Below, piece by piece: positions 56,464-63,391 of a stretch of DNA of 64,000 bases; positions within the stretch are counted from its first letter, which is position 1; each line of letters opens with the position of its first letter. The notes beneath the pieces were generated by a model. That model searched no databases and was not told where the DNA came from. It saw only the letters and a list, made by a program, of their open reading frames with translations. This DNA is from Phenylobacterium sp. LH3H17 (GTDB taxonomy: Bacteria > Pseudomonadota > Alphaproteobacteria > Caulobacterales > Caulobacteraceae), in NCBI RefSeq assembly GCF_024298925.1, contig NZ_CP101283.1, positions 3,849,001 to 3,913,000 of the forward strand, in the 5' to 3' direction. A program made the position numbers and the translations under genes.

Positions 56464-59376
56464 TTAGAATTTCTTGCGGACACCCACCTTGAAGGTCCGA
56501 CCGTAGGGGTTGCCGATGAAGGGATCGTAGGTGACCTCCAGTCGGGCCGCCGAGGGATCGCGGTCGAACAGGTTGAACACCGAGGCCGTGACCGTGGTGT
56601 CCCAGGGCAGCTGCAGGCGGTAGTTCAGGTCGACGGTGTAGAAGTCCTTGACCTTCATGCCGATCGTAATGAGCTGCAGCGCACCCGTGCTGTTCTGCAC
56701 CGAGATCGGCGCACGGTTGTCGACGGCTCCGTCCACATAGGTCAGGTCCGCCCGGAGGTTGTGCGCGCCCATGCCGTATTCGGCGTAGGCGTTGCCCCGG
56801 AAGCGGGAGACCGTGCCCGGGAAACGATCGTAGTTGGTGTAGCCGAGGGCCTCGTAAGCCTTGCTGACCAGGGCGCCGCCGACGCTGAATTCGGCGACGT
56901 CATACTTCAGAAGGTGGCTCACCGACACGCCCGTGGCGAAGTTACCGCCCCAGACATCGTCATTGCGGTAGTCGATGCTGACGTCGATGCCGGCGATCTT
57001 CATCTCCGGGCCGTTCACGGTGTCGGACTTCACGCGTTGGATGTCGTTGCCGATCGTCACGCCCTGAACGCAGGCGTTGTTGTTGTTGAAGGTGATCAGC
57101 GACCGCAGCGCGCTGCCGCAGTTGACGAACTGGGTCCCGTTCCCGACGCCGCCGACGGCGGTGGCCACGATCTGGGCCGGCACCGTGGTGATCTGTTCTT
57201 CGATCTTGAAGTTCCAATAGTCGACGATGACGCGGAAATCATAGGCCTCGAAGATGCCGCCGATATTGAACGTCGTCGCCTTTTCCGGGCCGATCGATGG
57301 GTTGCCGGCGAAATCCACCGACTTGAAGTTATTGCCCGCCGCCAGGATGGCCGAGAGGCCGGTCACGCTGTTGGACGAACGGTTGGCCGGGGTGGGTCCG
57401 CGGAAGGTGGTGCCGACGGAGCCGCGCAGGGCGAAGGCCGGGGTAAGCTGCCATTTGACCGCCAGCTTGGGATTGGTCGTCGAGCCCGTCTCGCCGCCGT
57501 AGTCCTCGAAGCGGATCGCGAGCTGGGCGTTGAGGCTGTCGGTGATCGGCAGGTTGGATTCGGCGAACAGGGCGTAGACGGAGTCCTCGAGCTGCTGCGG
57601 CGTGCTTTGGCCCAGGAAGATGTACGGTCCCGTGGGGAACGAGCAGACCGTCGAGCCGATCGTCGGGCACGGGGTGATGCGCGCGTCTTGCAGCGGGCTC
57701 TTCAGGCTCGACCGGAATTCGGTCCGGCGATACTGCGCGCCGGCCGCCCAACCGATCTGGCCGCCAGACAGTTCCCAGGGAAGCTCGCCGTTGACCACGG
57801 CGTCGACCACCAGAAGGCTCTGCGTCTGCTCGGTGGAGGGGAAATCCCACATCCAGCGGATCAGGTCGGGCTTGTTGGCGTTGGCCGAGACATAGCCCGG
57901 ATTGGTCAGCCCCAGGACCGGGTTGCCGGGATAGGCGTTGGAGAACGGGTTGAAATACTGGCAACCGTTGGCGCCCGGCGTGGTCCCGGTGCAGCCAGGC
58001 CCGCCGAGACCGTTGAGGGCCTTTTGCAGGCGCTCGATGATGACGTCGGGGGTGCCCTGGATGTTACGGGTCTCGGAGTAGGTCACCGCGGTGTCCCAGC
58101 CGATGCCCGTGTCGCCGAACTTGCCGCTCAGGTCCGCCGACACGCGATAGACGTCGTAGTTCCGGAAGCCGACCTGGCCGCCGTTGTCGAAGATCGGGTT
58201 GCCGCCGGCGCCCATGGGACGGAACAGGGTGAGCGAGATATTGTTGGTCGCCGCGATCTGGCCGGCCGAGAGGCCGGCTTGCTGCAAGGCCGTGATCGCG
58301 CCCGGATTGGTCGTCGGGGTGGTGAACACGCCCACGCTGCCGGGACCGTTCGGGCCCTGGATCGGCGGGAAGGCCGGCGAGAAGCGCATATGGGGCAGGT
58401 CGGTCTTCGAATACATGGCCTCGACGTGGAGGCGCAGGTCATCCGTGAAGTCGACGTTCGCCTCGGCATAGAGCTGATAGCGGTTCTCGTCCTCGATCAG
58501 ATTGTCGAACGGGATGTAGGTGAAGTAGCAGGCCGGGGTGGCGCCGCTGAAGCCCGCGAAACCGCCGACCGCGGTGCAGTTGGCGTCGCGCTGGACGCCG
58601 GCGGTGGGCGTCAGGCCATTGCGCGGCAGGAAGGACGGCGGTTGGCCCAGCACGGACCAGCCGGATGGGTTCGTCGTGTAGGGCTGGTAGGCCCAGTCAC
58701 GATCGAGGGTCGTCAGTTGCGAGCGGTGCTGATAGCCGGCCGAGATCAGGATGTTACCGATGTCGCCCGCCCAGCCGTAGACGGCGCTGGCGCTGTAGTC
58801 GCCATCCGAGCCGTCGACGTAGCGGTAGTCCGCCGCGAGCTCGAGCCCGCTGAAGTTCTTGCGCGTGATGAAGTTGACCACGCCGGCGATGGCGTCGGAT
58901 CCGTAGGTCGCCGCGGCGCCGTCCTTAAGGATTTCGACCCGGCCGACCGCGGCGGAGGGGATGAGGTTGGTATCGACGCCGCCGCTGCCCGCGCCCGCCG
59001 AGGGCACGGTGCGCCGCCCGTTGAACAGCACCAGGGTCCGCAGGCTGCCGAGGCCGCGAAGGTTGATCGTGCCGGCGCCGACCTGGCCCTGGGCCGCGGT
59101 CGAGAACTGATTGGAGTCGCCCAGGACCGGGCCTGAGACCGGCAGGGACTTGATCAGGTCGATCGTGGTGGGCGAGCCGCGCTTCTGAAGCTCATCCTGG
59201 CCGATCACATCGACCGGCAGCGCCGCGTCCTCGGGGGTGCCGGCGATATACGACCCGGTGACCACGACTTCTTCGACGGTGCTGGATTGTTCTTGGGCGG
59301 CGGCCTGGCCCGATAGGCCCATCGCCAGTGCGACAGCCAATACGGAGCCGCCGCAGAGATACCTGCTCTTCAACAT
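56464..59376 (-). CDS. TonB-dependent receptor, paralog 2
   Basis: The product has 970 residues. Signal peptide to GQAAAQ, then STVEEVVVTGSYIAGTPEDA, plug segments LRGLGSLRTLVLFNGRRTVP and LKDGAAATYGSDAIAGVVNFITR, and a barrel ending KVGVRKKF. The N-terminus and plug are nearly those of the downstream 1045-residue receptor while the barrel loops differ, so the copies probably take different ligands. The gene is preceded by about 290 bp without another gene, then a tRNA gene. Confidence 0.92.
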   Translation of the reverse strand: MLKSRYLCGGSVLAVALAMGLSGQAAAQEQSSTVEEVVVTGSYIAGTPEDAALPVDVIGQDELQKRGSPTTIDLIKSLPVSGPVLGDSNQFSTAAQGQVGAGTINLRGLGSLRTLVLFNGRRTVPSAGAGSGGVDTNLIPSAAVGRVEILKDGAAATYGSDAIAGVVNFITRKNFSGLELAADYRYVDGSDGDYSASAVYGWAGDIGNILISAGYQHRSQLTTLDRDWAYQPYTTNPSGWSVLGQPPSFLPRNGLTPTAGVQRDANCTAVGGFAGFSGATPACYFTYIPFDNLIEDENRYQLYAEANVDFTDDLRLHVEAMYSKTDLPHMRFSPAFPPIQGPNGPGSVGVFTTPTTNPGAITALQQAGLSAGQIAATNNISLTLFRPMGAGGNPIFDNGGQVGFRNYDVYRVSADLSGKFGDTGIGWDTAVTYSETRNIQGTPDVIIERLQKALNGLGGPGCTGTTPGANGCQYFNPFSNAYPGNPVLGLTNPGYVSANANKPDLIRWMWDFPSTEQTQSLLVVDAVVNGELPWELSGGQIGWAAGAQYRRTEFRSSLKSPLQDARITPCPTIGSTVCSFPTGPYIFLGQSTPQQLEDSVYALFAESNLPITDSLNAQLAIRFEDYGGETGSTTNPKLAVKWQLTPAFALRGSVGTTFRGPTPANRSSNSVTGLSAILAAGNNFKSVDFAGNPSIGPEKATTFNIGGIFEAYDFRVIVDYWNFKIEEQITTVPAQIVATAVGGVGNGTQFVNCGSALRSLITFNNNNACVQGVTIGNDIQRVKSDTVNGPEMKIAGIDVSIDYRNDDVWGGNFATGVSVSHLLKYDVAEFSVGGALVSKAYEALGYTNYDRFPGTVSRFRGNAYAEYGMGAHNLRADLTYVDGAVDNRAPISVQNSTGALQLITIGMKVKDFYTVDLNYRLQLPWDTTVTASVFNLFDRDPSAARLEVTYDPFIGNPYGRTFKVGVRKKF

Positions 59377-59664
59377 CTTCTTCCTCCCCCTCGCCGGACG
59401 CCGGTTTCGATCTGACGCGATGGTCGTCCGTGGGTGGAAAGATCAAACGCCTGTTTGGCGCGGCGGCGCTAGGCCATTTCTTGCGGCGGAGAAACAATCA
59501 GTCGAACTGCGTTCAACGCGCAACACCGTTACGGGAAAGGCGTTTTTGACGGCGACGATGAAAAGGCGACGTTAGCCGCGACAATCCGCCCCCCGTTGGA
59601 ATGGTGGCGGCCACGACGCCTCGACCCTGGGTTGGCCAGGGGACGTCGGACTGTCGGAAAGGGA

Positions 59665-59739
59665 TGGTGGACGTGACAGGGATTGAACCTGTGACCCCCT
59701 CGATGTCAACGAGGTGCTCTCCCGCTGAGCTACACGTCC
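59665..59739 (-). tRNA. tRNA-Val(GAC)
   Basis: The minus strand from 59739 folds as a standard cloverleaf: acceptor GGACGTG / CACGTCC, D stem GCTC/GAGC, anticodon arm CCTCG-TTGACAT-CGAGG with anticodon GAC, T arm ACAGG-TTCAATC-CCTGT, discriminator A and an encoded CCA. The structural part is 72 nt plus CCA. Confidence 0.96.
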
Positions 59740-60181: not shown

Positions 60182-60307
60182 GTGTGCTCCGAGGGGAATG
60201 TCTGCAAAGACCGATCCTAGGCGCCCAGGTGTAAATCCGCGATGAACCGCTCGCTCGTGGCGCCCCGGCGTTTGACCGCCGCGCAGACGCACCGTCATAT
60301 GATTGCG

Positions 60308-61204
60308 ATGACCGCCTGGGAATCCATCGCCGCAAACCGCGCCGCGCCGAAGGTCCCGCCGTTCGAGGTGCGGCGCGCGGCCGCCGTGGGAGAGCCTGCG
60401 CCGACCCCCCTGGTCTTCGCCTCCCCGCATTCGGGCCGGCTCTATCCGGAAGACATGATGGCCGCCGCGGCCCTGGACGCCATCGCCATCCGCCGCTCGG
60501 AAGACGCCTATGTCGATGAACTGGTGGGCGCGGGGCCGGTGCTGGGCGCGTCAATGATCTGCGCCAACCTGGCGCGGGCCTATATCGACGTGAACCGCGA
60601 GGCCTTCGAACTCGACCAGGCCATGTTCGCCGACGAACTGCCCGACTTCGCCCGCGCCCGCACGGCCAGGGTGGCGGCGGGGCTGGGCGCGATCGCCCGC
60701 GTGGTGTCGGAGGGCCAGGAGATCTATGCCCGCAAGCTGACCTTCGCCGAGGCCCGCGCCCGCATCGAGACGGCGCACGCCCCATACCACGCCGCCTTGG
60801 CCCGCCTGATCGGCGAGGCCCACTCGGCCCACGGCTACGCGATTCTGATCGACTGGCATTCCATGCCGGCCGCCGCGGCGCGGGTCGGCGGCGCGCCGTG
60901 CGACATCGTTCTGGGAGACCGGTTCGGCGCGGCCTGCGCCGGGCTGGTCACGCAGCGGGTGGAAAAGGAGTTGGAGGGAATGGGCTACCGGGTGGCTCGC
61001 AACGCCCCCTATGCCGGCGGCTACACCACCGAGCACTATGGGCGCCCGGGCCGCCGCACCCACGCCCTGCAGATCGAGATCAATCGCGGGCTCTATCTGG
61101 ACGAGGCGAACCTGGAGCCCACCGAGGGATTTACCCGCCTTCAGGCCGACCTGGAGGCCCTGACCCGGACCCTGGCCGCCGCCGACTGGTCCGGGCTCAA
61201 ATAG
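60308..61204 (+). CDS. N-formylglutamate amidohydrolase
   Basis: The product has about 298 residues from the ATG at 60308 (MTAWESIAANRAAPK); ATGs at 60299 and 60242 are in frame, and the ribosome-binding signal does not decide. The FGase fold shows PLVFASPHSGRLYPEDM, RRSEDAYVDELV, YIDVNREAFELD, a metal-binding ILIDWHSMP and LQIEINRGLYLDE. It hydrolyses N-formyl-L-glutamate (last step of one histidine degradation route) or a similar N-formyl compound. No other hut gene is near. It is divergent from cpdR with a short shared promoter region. Confidence 0.88.
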   Translation: MTAWESIAANRAAPKVPPFEVRRAAAVGEPAPTPLVFASPHSGRLYPEDMMAAAALDAIAIRRSEDAYVDELVGAGPVLGASMICANLARAYIDVNREAFELDQAMFADELPDFARARTARVAAGLGAIARVVSEGQEIYARKLTFAEARARIETAHAPYHAALARLIGEAHSAHGYAILIDWHSMPAAAARVGGAPCDIVLGDRFGAACAGLVTQRVEKELEGMGYRVARNAPYAGGYTTEHYGRPGRRTHALQIEINRGLYLDEANLEPTEGFTRLQADLEALTRTLAAADWSGLK

Positions 61205-61221
61205 CGTTCCGCCCTCAGGCC

Positions 61222-61249
61222 AAAAAAAAGCCGGACCCGAGGGCCCGGC
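61222..61249 (-). terminator. Rho-independent terminator of the predicted small RNA
   Basis: A 9-bp stem with one G-T pair and a 3-base loop is followed on the minus strand by eight T (61222-61229). It is oriented against both flanking genes, so it does not end the amidohydrolase transcript. Confidence 0.85.
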
Positions 61250-61306
61250 AGTTCATTAGGGAGGAAACGCCCAGGAAGGGCAGAGGCGTCAGCGACGCCT
61301 CACAGT
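61222..61306 (-). ncRNA. Predicted small RNA with C-rich single strand and terminator
   Basis: On the minus strand a promoter-like TTGTTG (61335-61340), 17 bp, TATATG (61312-61317) precedes a stretch with hairpin GAGGCGTC-GCT-GACGCCTC, a small GCCC/GGGC hairpin, an unpaired TTTCCTCCCTAATGAA (anti-Shine-Dalgarno CCTCC) and a 9-bp terminator stem GCCGGGCCC-TCG-GGGTCCGGC followed by eight T. No coding frame uses this terminator. The design resembles the alphaproteobacterial suhB/MmgR class, from memory. The start is estimated. Confidence 0.5.
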
Positions 61307-61558
61307 TCGAACATATACAGTGCGACGCACAAAACAACAACTGAAAATGTGTTTTGGCCATCACATTTCCTGATAGCCCTGAAAAAAACCGTTACAAAAC
61401 AGTAAGGTTATAATTCATCTGCTGATGAAGAAATTTGTTGCGGCGCACAATAGCTGTACAATGCCGATGTGCGGCGCCGCGAGAAGGCGCTGGCTTAATG
61501 GTCCGGCCTCGCCTACAAGCGCCCGCTTCTCCAGATAGGGCCCTCCCCGGGCAATTCA
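61250..61558. other. Intergenic region upstream of typA
   Basis: Apart from the predicted small RNA and its promoter (to 61340), this region is AT-rich between about 61335 and 61450 and holds GGTTATAATT at 61407-61416, a possible -10-like element for typA on the plus strand. No ORF or repeat was identified. The typA start has no strong Shine-Dalgarno sequence (CCTCCCCGGGCAATTCA precedes it). Confidence 0.4.
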
Positions 61559-63391
61559 ATGTCGCTCCGCAACATCGCCATCATCGCTCACGTCGACCAT
61601 GGGAAAACCACCCTCGTCGACCAACTGCTCGCCCAGTCGGGTGTGTTCCGCGCCAACGAGGCGACGGTCGAACGCGCCATGGACTCCAATGACCAGGAGC
61701 GCGAACGCGGGATCACCATCCTGGCCAAGTGCACCAGCGTGCTTTGGCATGGCGAGGCGGGCGACACCCGCATCAACATCATCGACACCCCCGGCCACGC
61801 CGACTTCGGCGGCGAGGTGGAGCGGATCCTCGGCATGGTGGACGGCTGCGTCCTGCTGGTGGACGCCGAAGAGGGCGTCATGCCCCAGACCAAGTTCGTG
61901 CTGGGCAAGGCGTTGAAGATGGGCCTGCGCCCCATCGTCTGCCTCAACAAGGTCGACCGGGCCCACGCCGATCCCGACCGGGTGCTGAACGACGCCTTCG
62001 ACCTGTTCGCCGCCATGGGCGCCACCGACGAGCAGCTCGACTTCCCGCACATCTATGCGTCGGGAAAGAACGGCTGGGCGACGCTGGACATGGCCAAGCC
62101 GAACGACACCCTGGCGCCGCTGTTCGACATGATCGTCAGCCACGTGCCGGAGCCCAAGGCCGTCGCCCAGAAGGATGGCCCCTTCCAGATTCTCTCGGTG
62201 CTCATCGAGAACGACCCGTTCCTGGGCCGCCTGCTGACCGGGCGCATCGAGAGCGGCAAGGCCGTTCCCGGCCTGGCGATCCATGCCCTGGGCATCGACG
62301 GCAAGGAAGTGGAACGCGGCCGCATCACCAAGGTGCTGGCTTTCCGCGGCCTGAAGCGCCAGCCCATCGAGGACGCCGAGGCCGGCGATATCGTGGCCAT
62401 CGCGGGCCTCAGCAAGGCCACCGTGGCCGATACGCTCTGCGCGCTCGAGGTCACGGAGGCCCTGCCCGCCCAGCCGATCGACCCGCCGACCATCTCCATG
62501 ACCGTCTCGGTGAACGACAGCCCGCTGGCCGGCCGCGAAGGCGACAAGGTGCAGAGCCGGGTCATCCGCGACCGCCTGCTGAAGGAAGCCCAGTCCAACG
62601 TCGCCATCCGGGTGACCGAGACCCCCGACAAGGACGCCTATGAGGTGGCCGGCCGCGGCGAGCTGCAGCTGGGCGTGCTGATCGAAGGCATGCGCCGTGA
62701 AGGCTTCGAGCTCTCCATCAGCCGCCCGCGGGTGGTCTTCCAGACCGATCCGGAGACCGGAGCGCGCCTCGAGCCCATCGAGGACGTGATGATCGACGTC
62801 GACGACGAGTTCAGCGGCATCGTCATCGAGAAGCTGTCGGCCCGGAAGGCCGAGCTGAAGGACATGGGCCCGTCGGGCGCGGGCAAGACCCGCATCAGCC
62901 TGATGTCGCCGTCGCGCTCGCTGATCGGCTACCAGGGCGAGTTTCTCACCGACACCCGCGGCTCGGGCGTGCTGAACCGGGTGTTCAGCCACTACGAGCC
63001 CTACAAGGGCCCCATCGACGCCGGCCGCAAGGGCGTGCTTGTGTCGAATTCCGACGGTGAGACCGCGGCCTACGCGCTATGGAATCTGGAAGAGCGCGGC
63101 ACGATGTTCGTGGGTGGCGGCGAGAAGACCTACCAGGGCATGATCATCGGTGAGAACAGCCGGGCCGACGATCTTGACGTCAATCCGATGAAGGCCAAGC
63201 AGCTCACCAACGTCCGCGCCTCCGGCAAGGACGAGGCGGTGCGTCTGACCCCGCCGCGCCGGCTGACCCTCGAACAGGCCATCGCCTATATCGAGGAAGA
63301 CGAACTGGTCGAGGTGACGCCGAAGTCGATCCGCCTGCGCAAGCAGGTGCTGAACCCCTCGTTCCGCAAGCGTCGCGTCAAGGAAGAGTAG
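61559..63391 (+). CDS. typA: Ribosome-associated GTPase TypA/BipA
   Basis: The 610-residue translational GTPase has G1 AHVDHGKTT (residues 10-18), switch region RERGITI, G3 DTPGHADFGG, G4 NKVD, the EF-G-like domains and the BipA-specific C-terminal domain ending LRKQVLNPSFRKRRVK. It aids 50S assembly at low temperature and stress adaptation. The next gene starts 3 bp after the stop. Confidence 0.97.
   Translation: MSLRNIAIIAHVDHGKTTLVDQLLAQSGVFRANEATVERAMDSNDQERERGITILAKCTSVLWHGEAGDTRINIIDTPGHADFGGEVERILGMVDGCVLLVDAEEGVMPQTKFVLGKALKMGLRPIVCLNKVDRAHADPDRVLNDAFDLFAAMGATDEQLDFPHIYASGKNGWATLDMAKPNDTLAPLFDMIVSHVPEPKAVAQKDGPFQILSVLIENDPFLGRLLTGRIESGKAVPGLAIHALGIDGKEVERGRITKVLAFRGLKRQPIEDAEAGDIVAIAGLSKATVADTLCALEVTEALPAQPIDPPTISMTVSVNDSPLAGREGDKVQSRVIRDRLLKEAQSNVAIRVTETPDKDAYEVAGRGELQLGVLIEGMRREGFELSISRPRVVFQTDPETGARLEPIEDVMIDVDDEFSGIVIEKLSARKAELKDMGPSGAGKTRISLMSPSRSLIGYQGEFLTDTRGSGVLNRVFSHYEPYKGPIDAGRKGVLVSNSDGETAAYALWNLEERGTMFVGGGEKTYQGMIIGENSRADDLDVNPMKAKQLTNVRASGKDEAVRLTPPRRLTLEQAIAYIEEDELVEVTPKSIRLRKQVLNPSFRKRRVKEE

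Follow-up and report, generated by a model that had tools for sequence, protein, structure and literature searches.

On the minus strand of the window (the whole stretch of Phenylobacterium DNA analysed here, 64,000 nucleotides), positions 61304-61222 are very probably a small RNA gene of a known alphaproteobacterial family. The explanation that we favour as a whole, with the steps of its mechanism included, is a trans-acting small RNA of the SisA/MmgR type (aR8, RF00519), and we put its probability at about 0.93. Its neighbour is an N-formylglutamate amidohydrolase (FGase) gene, next to which SisA (CCNA_R0014) has been reported to lie as well, so that we most likely have the orthologue of SisA before us, and homology suggests that it would have the function of SisA. 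Apart from its linkage to typA and a PhaR-type palindrome, it is an ordinary member of the aR8 family. The gene thereby receives a firm annotation, and the published biology of SisA and MmgR is extended to Phenylobacterium, a genus for which our literature search returned no paper on a suhB-type small RNA. The gene, its parts and its surroundings are listed here.

61222..61304, minus strand: small RNA gene (aR8 / RF00519), about 83 nt, with the 5′ end placed from the −10 box
61283..61301, minus strand: hairpin 1, 8 bp with a 3-nt loop, from the sequence and the predicted fold
61268..61282, minus strand: hairpin 2, 5 bp including a closing U-G pair, loop UUCCU
61258..61267, minus strand: seed UUUCCUCCCU (anti-Shine-Dalgarno), single-stranded in the predicted fold and identical to the published aR8 10-mer
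61222..61249, minus strand: intrinsic terminator, an 8-bp stem (61249-61230) and then eight T (61229-61222)
61312..61340, minus strand: promoter-like TTGTTG-N17-TATATG (TTGTTG 61340-61335, TATATG 61317-61312)
61320..61332, minus strand: PhaR/AniA-type palindrome TTGTGCGTCGCAC, between the −35 and −10 boxes, by fit to the core motif
60242..61204, plus strand: FGase (PF05013, 244.3 bits), convergent neighbour
61559..63391, plus strand: typA/bipA (PF21018 BipA_C, PF00009), divergent neighbour
59374..59388, minus strand: candidate target site GGGAGGAA, 4 nt upstream of the start codon in a TonB-dependent receptor gene, 59376-56464 (PF00593/PF07715)

Family assignment and structure of the gene

The sequence-only reading had proposed a complete small RNA gene with a resemblance to the suhB/MmgR family, and the hairpins, CCTCCC stretch, terminator and promoter-like boxes that it placed on the minus strand are all there. 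The resemblance was borne out by a search with Rfam RF00519 (suhB/mmgR, aR8 family), which matches 61288-61215 from end to end (model 1-77) with 53.7 bits, above the curated gathering cut-off of 41 bits; the E-value is 7.1e-10 when 1.5 kb is searched and 3e-8 for the 64-kb window. Together with compensatory changes in relatives and the FGase neighbour, this full-length match supports the idea of a complete gene. The predicted fold of the RNA has an energy of −40.5 kcal/mol (z −5.45), and none of 200 shuffled sequences was equally stable. A lone terminator-like site is within chance (1 found against 1.4 expected from shuffles); judged by the Rfam E-values and the folding z-score, the gene as a whole is beyond chance.

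SisA-D of Caulobacter crescentus are described as aR8 RNAs in which a weak hairpin precedes the 10-mer UUUCCUCCCU and a terminator is present, and an aR8 RNA is reported to adjoin the FGase gene in most species, with SisA itself downstream of that gene (PMC12559287). The window gene resembles SisA in each of these features: the exact seed follows a weak hairpin at 61267-61258 and is single-stranded in the predicted fold, a Rho-independent terminator closes the gene, and the FGase gene lies alongside. The CCTCCC that had been read as unpaired sits within this stretch (TTTCCTCCCT, 61267-61258, minus strand). The two systems differ in that the C. crescentus RNA is one of four siblings (SisA-D) and is accompanied by the sponge CrfA, whereas this genome has one copy above the cut-off. 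RF00519 matches the genome three times, and only the window copy both exceeds the cut-off and carries the seed; the two weak matches (31.5 and 30.7 bits) were rejected as members, as they fall below the cut-off and lack the 10-mer. The 30.7-bit match (L115, C1:2119841-2119913, plus strand) contains a terminator-like hairpin whose loop includes CCTCCCT.

Several other small RNA families bear CCUCCC, and the models of SorX, anti-hemB (Burkholderia RNA 7), BjrC1505 and SorY do give matches on the same strand, with 26.7, 23.3, 20.5 and 18.4 bits, respectively. SorX (RF02784) also shares with the window gene an internal CCUCCCU ahead of a strong terminator. However, all four scores are far under the respective cut-offs (46.6, 49.5, 50 and 111 bits), whereas RF00519 passes its own, and the 10-mer and the FGase context belong to aR8. 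It is therefore very improbable that the gene is a member of one of these families, and the search with other alphaproteobacterial models that the sequence-only reading had proposed leaves aR8 as the assignment.

Two details of the gene needed correction. A strong minus-strand terminator had been described with a 9-bp stem and eight T; the eight T are present, but the stem has 8 bp, including one G-U pair, and a CUCG loop. The TTGTTG-N17-TATATG boxes also exist as read, but they match the sigma-70 consensus poorly, and a consensus scan of 60500-62000 called no promoter. Support for the promoter comes from relatives, in which TATAAA-like boxes align with the −10 box TATATG. Transcription would run leftwards from this promoter, divergent from typA, and would stop at the intrinsic terminator, close to where the FGase gene ends. 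The description of the RNA as antisense holds for its orientation with respect to the flanking genes, but it is not antisense to either of these genes: the FGase reading frame stops at 61204, short of the terminator.

Conservation and genomic context

The structure is conserved among what we call Caulobacteraceae-type sequences, that is, the window and 39 FGase loci (up to L053, plus L056 and L060), each of which carries the exact 10-mer; a few record titles among them give just Alphaproteobacteria, Pseudomonadota or Proteobacteria. After six duplicates were dropped, 34 of these 40 sequences were aligned, window included. Pairing is kept in 98.7% of the 713 stem cells, a measure that favours the window structure, as the consensus was drawn from the window sequence itself. 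Covariation scores 0.308, compared with 0.114 for shuffles (none of 500 as high) and 0.027-0.077 for slid structures; kin sequences can beat shuffles without any structure, and two-sided changes are the stronger argument. Such changes occur in 9 of the 21 pairs, namely in three of the eight pairs of hairpin 1 (in which 99.3% of cells are paired) and in six of the eight pairs of the terminator stem. Hairpin 2 speaks neither for nor against pairing, because its five pairs never vary across the 34 sequences. Thus, conservation of stems with compensatory changes, which had been suggested as a check, is seen for two of the three stems, while the third is uninformative.

These results also bear on the possibility that there is no RNA gene here and that the hairpin merely terminates transcription of FGase. 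Although the hairpin begins only 26 nt past the FGase stop codon, the plus strand has an A-run before the stem and no T-run after it, and it is on the minus strand that relatives preserve the seed together with the two hairpins ahead of it. Furthermore, in each of six tested genomes that lack an RNA on the FGase side, a copy is found beside typA. Taken together, these observations leave the terminator explanation with a very small probability, and we continue with the aR8 RNA gene.

RF00519 matches above the cut-off occur in 95 of the 99 family genomes and in 58 of the 60 genus genomes, with our genome counted in both. The nearest relatives of the FGase come from Phenylobacterium MAGs (96 and 93% identity). 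In 62 of the 80 FGase loci fetched, the exact 10-mer follows FGase and is on the strand opposite to it, and in none is the arrangement reversed; the distance from the end of the FGase match to the 10-mer is 33 to 1234 bases (median 113). typA was present in the retrieved stretch of 37 loci, all of them among these 62. In L062, there is an extra complement of the 10-mer upstream of FGase, a chance site, and near one FGase gene in each of L067, L069 and L072 there are two or three aR8-like copies, some without the palindrome. Also upstream of the window FGase, a tRNA-Val (gac) gene is found at 59665-59739 on the minus strand, and a tRNA on the same strand precedes FGase in 18 of the 19 relatives scanned.

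The remaining 18 of the 80 loci have no exact 10-mer, and none gave an RF00519 match above the cut-off in the retrieved stretch; the scanned set contained 19 loci, and the nineteenth, L025, has the 10-mer. In three of the 18 (L020, L048 and L059), the stretch covers just 2 to 317 bases after FGase; in the rest, the linkage to FGase is really absent. The six genomes tested among the 18 each have an above-cut-off copy divergent from typA; typA is therefore also a neighbour in this group, beyond the published linkage to FGase. The typA-side copy of L150 has A instead of T as the last base of the seed. In the Phenylobacterium loci L006, L007, L008, L013, L018 and L019, neither the RNA nor typA lies within 2.5 kb after FGase, and the copy stands beside typA elsewhere.

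Candidate targets

The aR8 members studied so far have been reported to lower the expression of nutrient-uptake and metabolism genes by pairing with ribosome-binding sites. SisA is described as depending on Hfq to repress the mRNAs of TonB-dependent receptors, among others; it acts in trans and pairs upstream of the start codon, as shown by compensatory mutations, and it is sponged by CrfA during carbon starvation (PMC12559287). The hfq gene is present in our genome. By analogy, the exposed UUUCCUCCCU, together with Hfq, would pair with purine-rich ribosome-binding sites and lower translation, with TonB-dependent receptors and metabolic genes as candidate targets.

Ten sites in the genome fit GGGAGGAA-N4-9-ATG, against two for the backwards pattern, an excess that is weak evidence because ordinary ribosome-binding sites would give it as well. 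Seven of the ten precede credible genes and three do not. Two of the seven belong to TonB-dependent receptors, one being the window gene at 59376-56464; the other five precede an AMP-binding (acyl-CoA-synthetase-like) enzyme, a fumarylacetoacetate-hydrolase-family protein, a glyoxalase-fold protein, an acetyltransferase and an AurF-like protein, the last a weak match below the Pfam cut-off. The duplex energies predicted for the seven range from −16.2 to −23.9 kcal/mol and are not exceptional. For instance, when 18,276 overlapping 38-nt segments were taken from the window, 67 of them, including the antisense of the RNA itself, equalled or surpassed the duplex with the window receptor (−17.2 kcal/mol). 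The full 10-nt complement AGGGAGGAAA occurs nowhere in the genome except in the gene itself, and there is therefore no perfect target or CrfA-like partner. As predictions, these sites are compatible with SisA-like targeting and do not amount to proof of it.

An aR8 RNA could also act mainly on phasins and storage granules and not on nutrient receptors, a role that has been proposed for MmgR of Sinorhizobium meliloti, an aR8 member characterised earlier (PMC7143759, PMC7204398). The likeness to MmgR includes the end-to-end match to the covariance model, the single copy and the PhaR/AniA-type palindrome in the promoter, and loss of MmgR is reported to raise phasins and PHB in S. meliloti (PMC7204398). 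On the other hand, the window gene differs in having typA as its divergent neighbour and in the lack of predicted pairing with a phasin leader: the seed is predicted to form a poor duplex with the leader of the single phasin gene found (just −6.2 kcal/mol), and we rejected this leader as a direct pairing target. Moreover, the Caulobacter relative is reported to repress TonB-dependent receptors (PMC12559287). We thus regard a role mainly in granule control as unlikely and prefer SisA-like repression of uptake and metabolic genes.

A PhaR-type palindrome in the promoter

The core of the palindrome TTGTGCGTCGCAC fits YGCRNYGCR, which is the core of the published PhaR (AniA) motif of S. meliloti, a species in which the PHB sensor PhaR is reported to bind the mmgR promoter in EMSA (PMC12542648). 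Working from the coordinates in that paper and the RNA start in PMC7143759, we place the centre of the S. meliloti site near −23; the palindrome here is centred near −21 as counted from the presumed 5′ end, and the positions therefore agree. All 40 Caulobacteraceae-type sequences with the exact 10-mer have YGCRNYGCR 59-62 nt before the seed. When all rows with an exact 10-mer are considered (68, from 62 of the 80 loci and the window), the core is found 35-75 nt before the seed in 61, with a chance 10-mer outside the RNA (L062b5141) counted as a miss, compared with 0.6% in mononucleotide shuffles.

A second set was composed of the best-scoring RF00519 matches from the survey of genomes and the matches from the six genomes, with 6 of its 46 loci left out for lack of an exact central 10-mer. 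Here, 26 copies have FGase or typA in the retrieved flank; 25 of them carry the core 52-66 nt before the seed, and the remaining one (L155) has it at 36 nt, against one of the 14 copies without these neighbours; the set holds near-identical copies, and the related genomes are not independent. In our own genome, family searches found phaR, phaC and one phasin gene. The stricter pattern TTGTGCNNNGCAC gives 12 lines (11 places) in this genome, against two for its backwards version. Relaxed palindromes stand before the phasin gene and near phaR and count for little alone; single relaxed sites prove little because the core is common in this G+C-rich genome, where each 3.2-3.5 kb locus, that of phaC included, has 3 to 9 sites on the plus strand.

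These observations suggest that the promoter of the small RNA may be tied to the state of carbon storage. PhaR would repress the small RNA through the palindrome until PHB granules draw PhaR away. On a wider scale, we see an even chance that in Caulobacteraceae the ancestral aR8 RNA linked to FGase or typA is under PhaR control, whereas most unlinked paralogues are without the operator, having lost it; the RNA would then signal the filling of the carbon store to nutrient uptake at the outer membrane. Should the promoter site be functional, PhaR-based PHB sensing, known from S. meliloti, and receptor repression by SisA, known from C. crescentus, would join into one circuit in Caulobacteraceae. 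SisA is described as nearly constitutive, and no motif common to the promoters of the four siblings SisA-D is reported (PMC12559287). The second point fits a palindrome kept by the linked copy alone, while nearly constitutive expression would sit poorly with strong repression by PhaR. The main text of the SisA paper (PMC12559287) does not mention PhaR or AniA, and where PMC7204398 names Caulobacter, it is for a matter other than a link between PhaR and the small RNA. The link to PhaR is the only part of this account that might be new for the group, and phylogenetic work on the aR8 family may already describe the promoter site.

Similar palindromes were noticed elsewhere in our genome. One lies just upstream of the aspartate decarboxylase (panD) gene (L122:1132-1485, minus strand), and in S. 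meliloti, panC has been reported as a target of PhaR (PMC12542648). Another, in L120, is found some 345 bp ahead of the reading frame of a TonB-dependent receptor.
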